DNA of 25,072 nt, taken from the IMG/VR virus record IMGVR_UViG_3300030107_005200, positions 1 through 25,072 of that record. One strand, 5' to 3'. A program made the position numbers and the translations under genes. Each line of letters starts with the position of its first letter. Within the stretch, counting starts at the first letter, position 1. The DNA is from a virus. The notes beneath the pieces are model-generated. The model was not told where the DNA came from, made no database searches, and was given only the letters and a program-made list of their open reading frames with translations. This document shows, one piece after another, positions 14,561 to 17,423 of the stretch.

Positions 14561-14601
14561 GCCCACTTGGGATTAAAACCCTGAGTGGGCTTTTATTTTT
14601 T
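14561..14601 (+). terminator. Rho-independent terminator of the replication operon
   Basis: GCCCACT (14561-14567) pairs with AGTGGGC (14584-14590), continued by GGG with CCC, loop about 7 bases; a T-rich tract (14591-14601) follows on the plus strand. It overlaps the stop of the convergent minus-strand gene ending at 14593. On the minus strand the bases after the hairpin are not T-rich, so the structure works mainly for the plus strand. Confidence 0.88.
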
Positions 14602-14901
14602 AACTTCAAGAATACGTTCCAGCTTTGCAACAATATCGTTGTGAACCTTTGTCCTGGTAATCAGAAAGTCTTTAGACTGAGCATCTATTTGTCCACGGTA
14701 CTCGTCAATTACACGATCATACCGTTCTCGCATCTTCTCAGACCGACCATCATACTCTTTACGTATTTCATCTAGTTGCTCTTGAAAGCCTTCTACAAGC
14801 TTATCTAAGCGTTTTTGCATAGCCATAAATTGATACACAAGGAACGCAGCGAAAAGTCCAAGGTGGCCCCCAGCAAGCAGTGTATCTATTAAGGTTTGCA
14901 T
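14593..14901 (-). CDS. Membrane-anchored coiled-coil protein, lysis region
   Basis: The first 28 residues hold one hydrophobic helix (HLGLFAAFLVYQFMAM), the other 70 form a charged coiled coil (KRLDKLVEGFQEQLDEIRKEYDGRSEKMRERYDRVIDEYRGQID). A single N-terminal anchor with a long helical tail is the layout of inner-membrane spanins and of some holin-like proteins. It lies directly after the L,D-transpeptidase-like gene (TAATG overlap) as last gene of the late block. The type is inferred from layout, not from homology. Confidence 0.65.
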   Translation of the reverse strand: MQTLIDTLLAGGHLGLFAAFLVYQFMAMQKRLDKLVEGFQEQLDEIRKEYDGRSEKMRERYDRVIDEYRGQIDAQSKDFLITRTKVHNDIVAKLERILEVKK

Positions 14902-15476
14902 TAAAACTCTGGCTCTTCTATTAATGTGTAACTAAAAGAGTTGCCCCACTTAGACCTTGCAGCGTAGCAGATAGACATAAACTCTTCAAAGTCTGCACTA
15001 TGAGAAAAGACCTGGCAACCAGCAGACCATTTATCTACTTGCGTAGACGCTGATCCAGCTTTGTGAATATTGATTCCGTAATAGCCTTCAGTAATAGACT
15101 GTACATCAAGATCAATAACGTCGTCTTTATTGCTGTCCCTGTAAGTTTTGACCGTACCGTTCCTTTGGCAGAGCGCATCATACTTTCCTTGATGTTTGTC
15201 AATCTTCCATACACCACGGTATTGACCAGGAACAAGTATAGCAGTGCCTTCCACGCGGCTTGGGTTCTCAAGCCAATACTTTCCTGGCTCTGTAGTACAT
15301 TCCCATGTACGAGTTATCCAGCCCTGCTCATCACGAAACACCATACACATTCGGTCATCGAACCGGTTTGCTTGATGGTTCTTACTACGAATACCAATAA
15401 TGTTTACGTTGTAAATACCGTCTTCAAATACAGTATGACCAAGAGACTCTACGTAATCTAAAAGAATGGGTCGCAT
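14901..15476 (-). CDS. L,D-transpeptidase (YkuD)-like protein, possible peptidoglycan-active lysis enzyme
   Basis: The segment GINIHKAGSASTQVDKWSAGCQVF (about 134-157, here split for length: GINIHKAG, then DKWSAGCQVF) has H138, S151, G153 and C154 of the H-x(12-17)-S-x-G-C motif of YkuD-fold L,D-transpeptidases, whose Cys attacks peptidoglycan stem peptides. 191 residues, no signal peptide; the earlier part has PGQYRGVWKID and LCQRNGTVKTYRD strands of a beta-rich fold. It stands among small membrane proteins at the end of the late block, where a phage keeps its endolysin, so a role in cell-wall cutting or modification is likely. No other lysozyme or amidase is seen in the window. Confidence 0.7.
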   Translation of the reverse strand: MRPILLDYVESLGHTVFEDGIYNVNIIGIRSKNHQANRFDDRMCMVFRDEQGWITRTWECTTEPGKYWLENPSRVEGTAILVPGQYRGVWKIDKHQGKYDALCQRNGTVKTYRDSNKDDVIDLDVQSITEGYYGINIHKAGSASTQVDKWSAGCQVFSHSADFEEFMSICYAARSKWGNSFSYTLIEEPEF

Positions 15477-15763
15477 TAGTCACAGTCTGCATTCGTAGCA
15501 GAACAAATCTTAGCTTGGTTAATGGCTTGCTGTTGCTGTACTTCCAACATCTTAGCCATTAGGTCTTCCATCTTATCCAGGCGCTTTTCTACGCCTTCAA
15601 TCTTAATATCTACAATCTCTTGATTGCCTGACTTAGATTCAAGAACTTCAACACGCTTGTCTATTTCTTGTACGTCTTGTGCAGCAGACTCAAGAGAAGC
15701 AAAACAAATGCCGGCAGCAAATACTACAGTAACGCTTGGAACTACCCATTCTTTAATGCTCAT
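15476..15763 (-). CDS. Single-pass coiled-coil membrane protein
   Basis: One N-terminal hydrophobic helix (WVVPSVTVVFAAGICFASL) and then heptads (VQEIDKRVEVLESKSG..., IKIEGVEKRLDKMEDLMAKMLEVQQQQ). A C-terminal tail holds two Cys (CSATNADCD). The layout is like the 102-residue protein downstream; the two may be a pair such as holin plus spanin or antiholin. The start overlaps the stop before it (ATGA). Confidence 0.65.
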   Translation of the reverse strand: MSIKEWVVPSVTVVFAAGICFASLESAAQDVQEIDKRVEVLESKSGNQEIVDIKIEGVEKRLDKMEDLMAKMLEVQQQQAINQAKICSATNADCD

Positions 15764-16203
15764 CGCGATGCTCCTGAACTATAATAATATGTAGCACCTA
15801 ATCCAGCACTAACAACTGCGACAACTGCTAACGTTTCTATTCTACCAAGCCAACGCTGTGTTGCGGGCCTTTCTAAAAAAGGTTTCTGTTTTGTTTCTTC
15901 TTCCAGCTTAGACTTATACCAATCTATGTCTTGCTGTAATGAAGCAATGTCTAACTTATACCTGCTTTCTAAAGCCTTCGCCCACTGCTCTGTTGCAAGT
16001 AAATCACTGTAATCGGAAAGGGGTACAGCCACTGCAGAACAAGCAGCATGGACAGATGGAATCGCTATCTCATCCGGCAGTGACTGACCCCTGCTAATTG
16101 GGAAATTAGAACTACATTCACCTTCTATTTTTTCTGGTGGTGCAGGGCGCTCTGGCATTGGGGATAGTGCCATAGCTGAGCCAACCAGAAATAGCATTAT
16201 CAT
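15760..16203 (-). CDS. Exported protein with C-terminal membrane helix
   Basis: A hydrophobic N-terminus (MIMLFLVGSAMALSPM) looks like a signal sequence cleaved after Ala; a Pro-rich linker, two Cys (CSSN, AACSA), a coiled coil with LQQDIDWYKSKLEEETKQK and a C-terminal hydrophobic helix (TLAVVAVVSAGLGATYYY) follow. Periplasmic body with both ends at the membrane fits a spanin-like role, though no lipobox is seen. GGAGCAGAAG precedes ATG 16203. Not recognised by family. Confidence 0.6.
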   Translation of the reverse strand: MIMLFLVGSAMALSPMPERPAPPEKIEGECSSNFPISRGQSLPDEIAIPSVHAACSAVAVPLSDYSDLLATEQWAKALESRYKLDIASLQQDIDWYKSKLEEETKQKPFLERPATQRWLGRIETLAVVAVVSAGLGATYYYSSGASR

Positions 16204-16448
16204 CTTCTGCTCCGCGCATTTCCCAAAGCAGCTAACTTTTTAGAAGGGTCATCACTTTCTGTTGCCTTTTTAATTACGTCTAAGTTTTCACTAAGGTCGT
16301 TACTTATCTTTTCGACCATAACTTCAGTTACTTTATTCTTAGGTGGCTCAGTTGGTGATTTTTTCTTTTGTTTTGTTTTAGATAAAAAGAAAAACGCAGC
16401 CGCTATAGTAGCGACTACGCTTAAAAACCATTTCCAAAAAGACTTCAC
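16200..16448 (-). CDS. Small membrane protein with basic tail
   Basis: N-terminal helix FWKWFLSVVATIAAAFFFL, then a very basic strip (KTKQKKKS), a Pro linker and a polar helix (KISNDLSENLDVIKKATES). 82 residues. Positive charges right after the helix place the tail in the cytoplasm. The start has an ATGA-type tie with its neighbour. One of the five small membrane proteins in this cluster; holin or antiholin are possible roles. Confidence 0.6.
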   Translation of the reverse strand: MKSFWKWFLSVVATIAAAFFFLSKTKQKKKSPTEPPKNKVTEVMVEKISNDLSENLDVIKKATESDDPSKKLAALGNARSRR

Positions 16449-16636
16449 TTCTTAGAAATAGCAGACATGGCTTTTTCTGCAGAGTCTCCAGCTATATATG
16501 CTAAGCCAAGGTATAGCCATTGCTCGGATTCAAGCATACCTGTAGCCAGTAGCCCCGTTCCAAGGACTAGTACAGCAAGACGGCGCCATGAAAGACGTTG
16601 TTGAGAACAAAAAAGTTTATTGATAAAGGCGACCAT
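16445..16636 (-). CDS. Holin-like small membrane protein
   Basis: 63 residues with a basic N-terminus (CSQQRLSWRR) and two hydrophobic stretches (LAVLVLGTGLLATGML and WLYLGLAYIAGDSAEKA). The W-L-Y-(L/V)-(A/G)-LAYI-(G/A)-G-x-(A/S)-AEKA end is one I recall from short phage membrane proteins annotated as putative holins. GAGG lies six bases before ATG 16636. It is the first of the cluster to be transcribed after the tail genes, which suits a holin. Confidence 0.6.
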   Translation of the reverse strand: MVAFINKLFCSQQRLSWRRLAVLVLGTGLLATGMLESEQWLYLGLAYIAGDSAEKAMSAISKK

Positions 16637-16644
16637 GTTTTACC

Positions 16645-17034
16645 TCAGAACGTGCAAAGAATCTTTACTTTAACGTTGCTTGTTGGGCTCTGGTTAGCGT
16701 TTGCATTGTTGTTTGTTGATGCATTTGCACTAGTAACAGTCCAAAAACTAAGAGAACCTACAGCAAAACCACCACCAACAATGTACGTTTCTTTTAATCC
16801 AGCACCAACTTTAAATTGTAAGTCTGGAGAGGTTGTACCAACAGTAGGGTTAGTGCTCTGGTAAAGCTTTGTATATACAGGAACAGAAGTATTTGATGTA
16901 TTATCAATTTCTATAGCGTATACAGTGCCTGCCGCACCAGAAGTAACATTACTTTCAGCCGTAGCATTTGAATCAGCATCAATAATAAGTTTTGTGCCAA
17001 TAGGATCTGGAATTGTGCCTACAGTTACAGCCAT
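16645..17034 (-). CDS. Beta-rich structural protein, paralogue 1
   Basis: 129 residues with alternating Thr, Ser, Gly, Val (AGTVYAIEIDNTSNTSVPVYTKLYQSTNPTVGTTSPDLQFKVGA...). It is a tandem paralogue of 17043-17423: shared blocks are D-N-(T/K)-S, V/I-Y-x-(K/R)-L, PT-x-G-(T/S)-(T)-(S/P)-D-x-x-F-x-V-x-A, and G-(A)-x-F-x-x-G-L-x-(F/L)-W-T. This suggests a small beta-sandwich, as in head-decoration or fibre-associated proteins. GAGG six bases before ATG 17034. Exact role unknown. Confidence 0.65.
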   Translation of the reverse strand: MAVTVGTIPDPIGTKLIIDADSNATAESNVTSGAAGTVYAIEIDNTSNTSVPVYTKLYQSTNPTVGTTSPDLQFKVGAGLKETYIVGGGFAVGSLSFWTVTSANASTNNNANANQSPTSNVKVKILCTF

Positions 17035-17042
17035 TTTTTACC

Positions 17043-17423
17043 TCAAGAACAGACTACGGTTACGGTGCAGCCACCTGATGCGGGCGGGTTGTTATCTAAT
17101 GGGCTTTCATTTAATGTTGTCCAAAGATTAAGACCTTCTGTAAATGGTGCGCCACCAGGGATTTCAAACTTATATACAGTGTTTGCTTTAACCCAAAAAG
17201 TCCAATCACTAGGAGTGCTTCCAAGTGTAGGGGTAGGCCCATCAGAAAGACGAGCGTAAATCTTGTCTCCTGATTTATTATCAACTGTTATTGAATACCA
17301 TTTACCCGAACTACCGGTAACATTTTCTTGAATCGCAGCGGTAGGAGACTGTTGGTTATTAAAATAAATAATTTTATAATCAAGAGCAGCGCTGCTAAAT
17401 CCAGATACTTTAATCTCAGCCAT
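17043..17423 (-). CDS. Beta-rich structural protein, paralogue 2
   Basis: 126 residues, same fold as the paralogue downstream: YSITVDNKSGDKIYARLSDGPTPTLGSTPSDWTFWVKANTVYKFEIPGGAPFTEGLNLWTTL. It ends with a Cys-containing beta strand (GGCTVTVVCS), where paralogue 1 has VKVKILCTF. The pair probably arose by gene duplication. AAGGA is before ATG 17423. It lies directly after the beta-propeller gene and is likely a virion or tail-tip accessory protein. Confidence 0.65.
   Translation of the reverse strand: MAEIKVSGFSSAALDYKIIYFNNQQSPTAAIQENVTGSSGKWYSITVDNKSGDKIYARLSDGPTPTLGSTPSDWTFWVKANTVYKFEIPGGAPFTEGLNLWTTLNESPLDNNPPASGGCTVTVVCS

Follow-up and report, generated by a model that had tools for sequence, protein, structure and literature searches.

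A predicted YkuD-fold enzyme as the likely endolysin of a six-gene phage lysis cassette

A minus-strand cassette of six overlapping genes

The window analyzed here is the entire 25,072-base IMG/VR contig of virus record IMGVR_UViG_3300030107_005200, which is probably part of a larger viral genome, and our subject is a cassette of six small genes on its minus strand, one of which encodes a 191-amino-acid (aa) enzyme. Read from position 16636 to 14593, the open reading frames (ORFs) encode E63, D82, C147, B95, the enzyme and A102 (Table 1), and successive genes overlap by 4, 4, 4, 1 and 1 nucleotides. An earlier note, made from the sequence alone, had described six coupled genes here, five of them for partners with one or two hydrophobic helices and one for a YkuD-like protein; all six are indeed on the minus strand, each overlapping the next, and a Kyte-Doolittle scan found a hydrophobic segment in all five partners. 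E63, D82, B95 and A102 have a single such segment in their N-terminal half, and C147 has a hydrophobic signal-like stretch at its N-terminus plus a C-terminal helix. Read by eye, A102 and B95 share one layout, an N-terminal anchor plus a charged coiled-coil-like helix, as had been proposed for two of the partners. A hydrophobicity scan of the enzyme found neither a transmembrane (TM) helix nor a hydrophobic N-terminus.

The cassette was then compared with 80 related IMG/VR loci, in which the enzyme is 77-98% identical to that of the window and in which counts were taken over loci with enough flanking sequence. A homologue of B95 adjoined the enzyme gene in 76 of 77 loci and a homologue of A102 lay downstream of it in 69 of 75, while homologues of C147 (40 of 75) and D82 (31 of 74) were found by the enzyme gene and those of E63 within reach of it (40 of 61). 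The gene order of the cassette is thus not due to chance and recurs in related phages. A DNA search with the window found no near known phage, and a search with its DnaB returned only matches below 60% identity, the best row having 28%; because these matches are too distant, we left the host of the window phage unassigned.

Table 1. Genes of the cassette in the order in which they are read
Product	Position	Strand	Features and candidate role
E63	16445..16636	-	hydrophobic segment at about residues 20-38; putative holin candidate
D82	16200..16448	-	GTG start; N-terminal TM helix, Lys-rich tail; candidate lysis protein
C147	15760..16203	-	signal-like N-terminus, helical part, C-terminal TM helix; unimolecular-spanin-like layout, no lipobox
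B95	15476..15763	-	N-terminal anchor, coiled-coil-like helix, C-terminal cysteines; possibly inner-membrane-spanin-like or antiholin-like
Enzyme, 191 aa	14901..15476	-	YkuD-fold cysteine enzyme, phrog_3000, H138/S151/G153/C154; predicted endolysin
A102	14593..14901	-	N-terminal anchor, long charged helix; possible holin/antiholin-like candidate

Conserved residues and predicted fold of the enzyme

Sequence searches of Pfam, NCBIfam and the PDB with the 191-aa enzyme gave no usable match, the protein being too divergent. It does match phrog_3000, a family labelled 'unknown function' (E 2.1e-36, profile positions 41-201 of 209), and its core matches residues 295-433 of phrog_33083 'endolysin' (456 aa; E 5.6e-15), a longer protein whose C-terminal part shares the enzyme's domain. 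The residues H138, S151 and C154 named in the earlier note are present at those positions, and we analyzed their conservation in an alignment of 79 members, comprising the window protein and 78 relatives from a non-redundant list of 82. N25, G28, R30, H95, R113, D114, N136, H138, S151 and G153 are invariant in all 79 members and C154 is kept in 78. The remaining member, from Polaribacter (L153:5935-6498), has Thr at this position in an otherwise intact motif and is possibly inactive. The spacing from H to C is 16 residues in the enzyme, equal to that in the YkuD set (H119-C135), and its S-x-G-C core is the same as in YkuD domains. The cut-off of Tlde1_dom (PF10908) was not reached in the 79 members, of which two gave a match, the better at E 0.05.

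The AlphaFold model of the enzyme had a pLDDT of 96.1 and a pTM of 0.92. Foldseek with this model found nothing in the PDB at E 0.001, the top candidate being Pgp2 (E 0.047, probability 0.90), and VIA-align was run on the top 1000 Foldseek candidates. Among the highest Z scores were those of Pgp2 (9.3, the best), Csd6 (8.9), Bd1075 (8.8), Ldtfm (8.1), a 1,3-L,D-transpeptidase (8.0), DpaA (7.8) and YkuD (7.7), where Z below 8 can reflect a common arrangement. Rows 1-42 of the 45 obtained are YkuD-type by title, with Z of 6.4-9.3 (one of them, 4xxt, carries the title fused amidase/peptidase), and the next row has a Z of 2.1. Because of this clean gap in Z, together with the H/S/G/C core, we accept a YkuD (L,D-transpeptidase) fold for the enzyme as modelled, and the predicted structure and the conserved residues thereby bear out the earlier description of the protein as YkuD-like. 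In BFVD, five viral models matched the enzyme at E up to 0.001, one of which, from an uncultured marine phage, is named 'Lysin'. The best structural matches, Pgp2, Csd6 and Bd1075, are YkuD-fold L,D-carboxypeptidases that have the Cys/His core in common with the enzyme and serve in cells as cell-shape or trimming enzymes. They are, however, only 10-15% identical to it over the alignment, and the window enzyme differs from them in being a phage protein without an export signal that is encoded in a lysis cassette.

Exchange with lysozymes at lysis slots of other phages

A tblastn search identified 26 phage records with a relative of the enzyme. In crAss002 the enzyme gene stands between a PD-(D/E)XK nuclease and two overlapping genes for small membrane proteins, which are followed by terL. 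The order is alike in the crAss-like phages Rudgehvirus, cr8_1, cr271_1 and ctcc615, although the annotation of ctcc615 shows only a single member of the pair and the Rudgehvirus record stops short of terL; cr127_1 (Crevaviridae) has further genes between the small pair and terL. In Carjivirus (p-crAssphage), cr11_1, cr3_1, ctbg_1 and cr110_1 the same slot is occupied by an annotated lysozyme, GH108 protein or secretion-activator/glycosyl hydrolase. These 11 phages were taken from 34 nuclease-bearing records, a number that includes RefSeq duplicates, and searches of the whole records found phrog_3000 in 6/6 carriers and 0/5 non-carriers, whereas GH108 was found in 0/6 carriers and 5/5 non-carriers. 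The small pair downstream is related between carriers and non-carriers (blastp E 2.8e-5 to 1e-3 in a tiny database).

A second exchange was seen in P2-like phages, where five records, including ACA1, were compared out of 75 with an HP1-type tail tube. Here the slot runs from the tail tube to the tape measure or assembly chaperone. HP1 has hol and lys in it, C5a a pesticin-like muramidase, K139 a putative endolysin and phiO18P hol...lys, whereas ACA1 has gp35, a member of the phrog_3000 family. The authors who described ACA1 reported that they were unable to identify an endolysin in this phage. Prophage-like loci in bacteria repeat the order, since among 146 neighbours of the enzyme gene 14 were HP1 Orf24 (tail tube) and 12 were tail assembly chaperones. 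The endolysins that crAss-like and P2-like phages carry there, GH108, GH24 and pesticin-like muramidases, resemble the enzyme in occupying the same genome slot, in being soluble and in lying beside holin-like or spanin-like genes, but they are unrelated glycosidases, in contrast to a predicted cysteine peptidase.

We consider it likely that the cassette is the lysis module of this marine phage, with the 191-aa protein as the endolysin: a soluble peptidase of YkuD fold that attacks peptidoglycan and depends on a cysteine. The phrog_3000 family as a whole most likely consists of endolysins that require a holin. This role is proposed because phrog_3000 exchanges with lysozymes at crAss-like and P2-like lysis slots, synteny being the best evidence for it. 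The lysis region recognized in the earlier note is supported, and its idea of an unusual lytic enzyme is probably right, although for a better reason than it had given, namely lysozyme exchange in two phage groups. On a wider scale, we tentatively propose that phrog_3000 may be an unrecognised class of endolysins, YkuD-fold cysteine L,D-endopeptidases that were swapped with muramidases on independent occasions, with GH108 in crAss-like gut phages and with an HP1-type lysozyme or a pesticin-like enzyme in P2-like phages, and on which many marine phages, a large group, could rely as their only endolysin.

The same loci bear on whether the enzyme is instead carried by the virion and opens the wall at entry. 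In both the window and phi1422 its gene adjoins tail-fibre-like genes, and in ACA1 it is surrounded by tail genes, as that of an entry enzyme might be. However, ACA1 gp35 stands where HP1 has its lysis genes, and the GenBank note of gp35 makes no mention of mass spectrometry, which is mentioned for some other products among the notes listed. As the window also couples the enzyme gene to genes for five membrane proteins, we regard a virion-borne enzyme as highly improbable.

Because the window is likely a genome fragment, the absence of another lytic enzyme was tested in other genomes. The earlier note had seen no lysozyme, amidase or transglycosylase, and we likewise found no canonical endolysin among the scanned proteins of the window or of a genome-length relative (G018); a canonical endolysin elsewhere in the genome, which the note had named as the finding that would overturn its view, was sought in relatives and not found. 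Among 30 IMG/VR records of relatives, which are possibly fragments, there was no match to GH24 or Amidase_2, and in 25 of the 30 none over cut-off to GH108, M15_4 or SLT. Below cut-off there was one match to SLT, in a 2584-aa frame of G009, one to GH108, in an 885-aa frame of G025, and one to M15_4. A GH19 search gave no match anywhere, controls included. At 59,469 bases G018 exceeds one genome and contains a complete gene set spanning about 51 kb; its two ends (L191 and L193) share their genes for about 8.5 kb, with 72-94% identity in blocks, and it looks like two strains joined in assembly. A scan of 59 of its 66 picked ORFs (seven short or antisense ones were omitted, and the picks did not include the homologues of C147 and B95) matched 18 Pfam families at E 0.001, none of them a peptidoglycan hydrolase; one weak match was to YkyA, a putative cell-wall-binding lipoprotein (E 0.00068). 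Against PHROGs at E 1e-10, the sole lysis label in G018 was that of the enzyme itself.

These searches bear directly on another explanation, in which lysis is the work of a different, unrecognised enzyme while the 191-aa protein either remodels the wall, through L,D-transpeptidation or through trimming, or guards it up to that point. Cross-linking and trimming enzymes do have this fold, and some relatives adjoin an Amidase_2 gene or sit in chromosomal contexts, as would suit such a role. However, in two phage groups the lysis slot holds a member of this family in place of GH108 or a muramidase, no other peptidoglycan hydrolase family was over cut-off in the IMG/VR relatives tested, and the enzyme itself lacks a hydrophobic export signal. 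Wall remodelling or protection is therefore unlikely, and the protection of the wall until lysis that the earlier note had offered as an option is not supported, given that phrog_3000 takes the place of lysozyme in two other phage groups.

Evidence against an endolysin, and a possible lysis pathway

Several observations weigh against the enzyme being a YkuD-type endolysin. The full SHGC(I)(R/N) motif is absent, the enzyme having SAGCQV; the Pfam YkuD (PF03734) cut-off was not reached, the window protein giving no match and a single one of the 79 members a best E of 0.0091; and hhalign against 16 YkuD domains was not significant (probability 0.57%), even though it aligned the H residues with each other and the two S-x-G-C cores likewise. 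Carboxypeptidases are among the nearest folds, and such an enzyme by itself should not suffice for lysis; the annotations of named phages read hypothetical protein or, in one, peptidoglycan-binding protein. Furthermore, among 12 named phage records two huge phages, and only these, also carry Amidase_2, one of them GH24 over cut-off as well (a single GH24 match, in a 1188-aa frame of cr8_1, was under cut-off), and in Bacteroidia there are loci with an Amidase_2 gene adjoining the enzyme gene (8 of the 146 neighbours). Thus, the phrog_3000 protein can have other lytic enzymes beside it. The loci in Flavobacterium look chromosomal, with two-component (LytTR/histidine kinase) and DUF2589 neighbours, as do those of Prevotellaceae, with PASTA (5) and pseudouridine synthase (5) neighbours. 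Finally, we found no sister phage in the window's own lineage that has a lysozyme at this position. Occupation of an endolysin slot is shown by gene order for the phrog_3000 family, and for the window's lineage the slot argument is indirect, through membrane-protein company alone.

The departure from SHGC(I)(R/N) would also suit a YkuD-fold protein that takes part in lysis with another chemistry, as a glycosidase, an amidase or an esterase of another envelope polymer, and the same can be said of the invariance of H95, R113 and D114, which to our knowledge are not landmarks of YkuD domains. We judge such a chemistry very unlikely, as YkuD domains have the same H-to-C spacing and the same S-x-G-C core and as relatives are fused to peptidoglycan-binding domains. 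Three of these fusions to PG_binding_1 are over cut-off (L134, L140 and L156) and two just under it (L146 and L160), and L155 has Amidase_2 and a YkuD-like domain in one protein. Judged by their domain content, the PG_binding_1 and Amidase_2 fusions point to peptidoglycan as the substrate.

For an endolysin of this fold, our best guess, by analogy, is that it cleaves after diaminopimelate, as an L,D-endopeptidase. The enzyme would collect in the cytoplasm and cross the inner membrane once this was opened by E63 or A102, whose size and hydrophobicity alone make them the candidate holins. It would then hydrolyse peptide stems at the L-centre of diaminopimelate and so cut the mesh, the bonds cut being meso-diaminopimelate (mDAP)-D-Ala in 4-3 cross-links and mDAP-mDAP in 3-3 cross-links. 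The earlier note had considered action on 3-3 or Lpp cross-links; this stands as one option but is too narrow, as mDAP-D-Ala could also be hydrolysed in ordinary 4-3 cross-links, which would likewise cut the peptidoglycan mesh. B95 and C147, whose helical parts would face the periplasm, may then help to break the outer membrane.

The two cysteines conserved in C147 are C30 and C55, and a C-terminal TM helix is present in 30/30 unique homologues. A classical Rz/Rz1 pair within the cassette was considered and dropped, since a lipobox-bearing outer-membrane lipoprotein partner was not found: the minus-strand frames of the cassette had no lipobox beyond one 10-aa fragment, and none was present in unique homologues of C147 (0/30) or B95 (0/59) or in homologues of A102. 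Because no lipoprotein was found, we do not call B95 and C147 spanins. Single-sequence family searches with the five small proteins gave weak matches only, including B95 to XhlA (E 0.053) and A102 to an Rz-like spanin (E 0.054).

YkuD enzymes are reported to act at the L-centre of diaminopimelate (review PMC12729407), and Tlde1a is described in PMC9638812 as a toxin with an L,D-transpeptidase fold that cleaves mDAP-D-Ala. As in our proposal for the enzyme, Tlde1, a type VI secretion effector, is an L,D-transpeptidase fold turned into a peptidoglycan-damaging antibacterial (PMC9638812); it differs in being injected rather than released by a holin and in working by trimming and D-amino acid exchange. 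PhaLP has only ten YkuD cases among phage lytic proteins, and the excerpts of literature found on YkuD/L,D-transpeptidases, phage lysis, crAss-like phages and ACA1 do not describe the phrog_3000 family as an endolysin. If correct, our reading would give a function to an unannotated family that occurs in marine phages, in crAss-like phages of the gut and in the prophages of several genera of Gram-negative bacteria, and would supply ACA1 and other phages with their 'unidentified endolysin'. It would also add a cysteine peptidase acting at diaminopimelate to the chemistries of endolysins, in which the host's own cross-linking fold has been turned into a lysis enzyme.

The relatives in bacterial loci differ in their surroundings. 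Bacteroidia loci are phage-like, with DNA methyltransferases and amidases by PHROGs, and several of their phrog_3000 copies end in a C-terminal TM helix; in L149, L157, L163, L165, L168, L169, L171 and L173 a small protein lies beside the phrog_3000 protein, with Amidase_2 in at least some. At L098-L102, L105 and L110-L112 (Flavobacteriia and a Fulvivirga chromosome) the gene lies by DUF2589, several times with LytTR/histidine kinase, in what is apparently a non-phage use. Genes of about 367 aa stand alongside it in Prevotellaceae/Bacteroidales (L123, L133, L138, L150, L152 and L164), mostly with a protein that has an N-terminal TM helix as well. Two contigs carry the enzyme gene twice, close together (L144:5298-6636 and L137:96-1895). 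In the window, the cassette is preceded by F129 and G126, tandem paralogue-like genes at 16645-17423, and by large tail-fibre-like genes; relatives have more copies of F129/G126-like genes, which often flank E63 on both sides.

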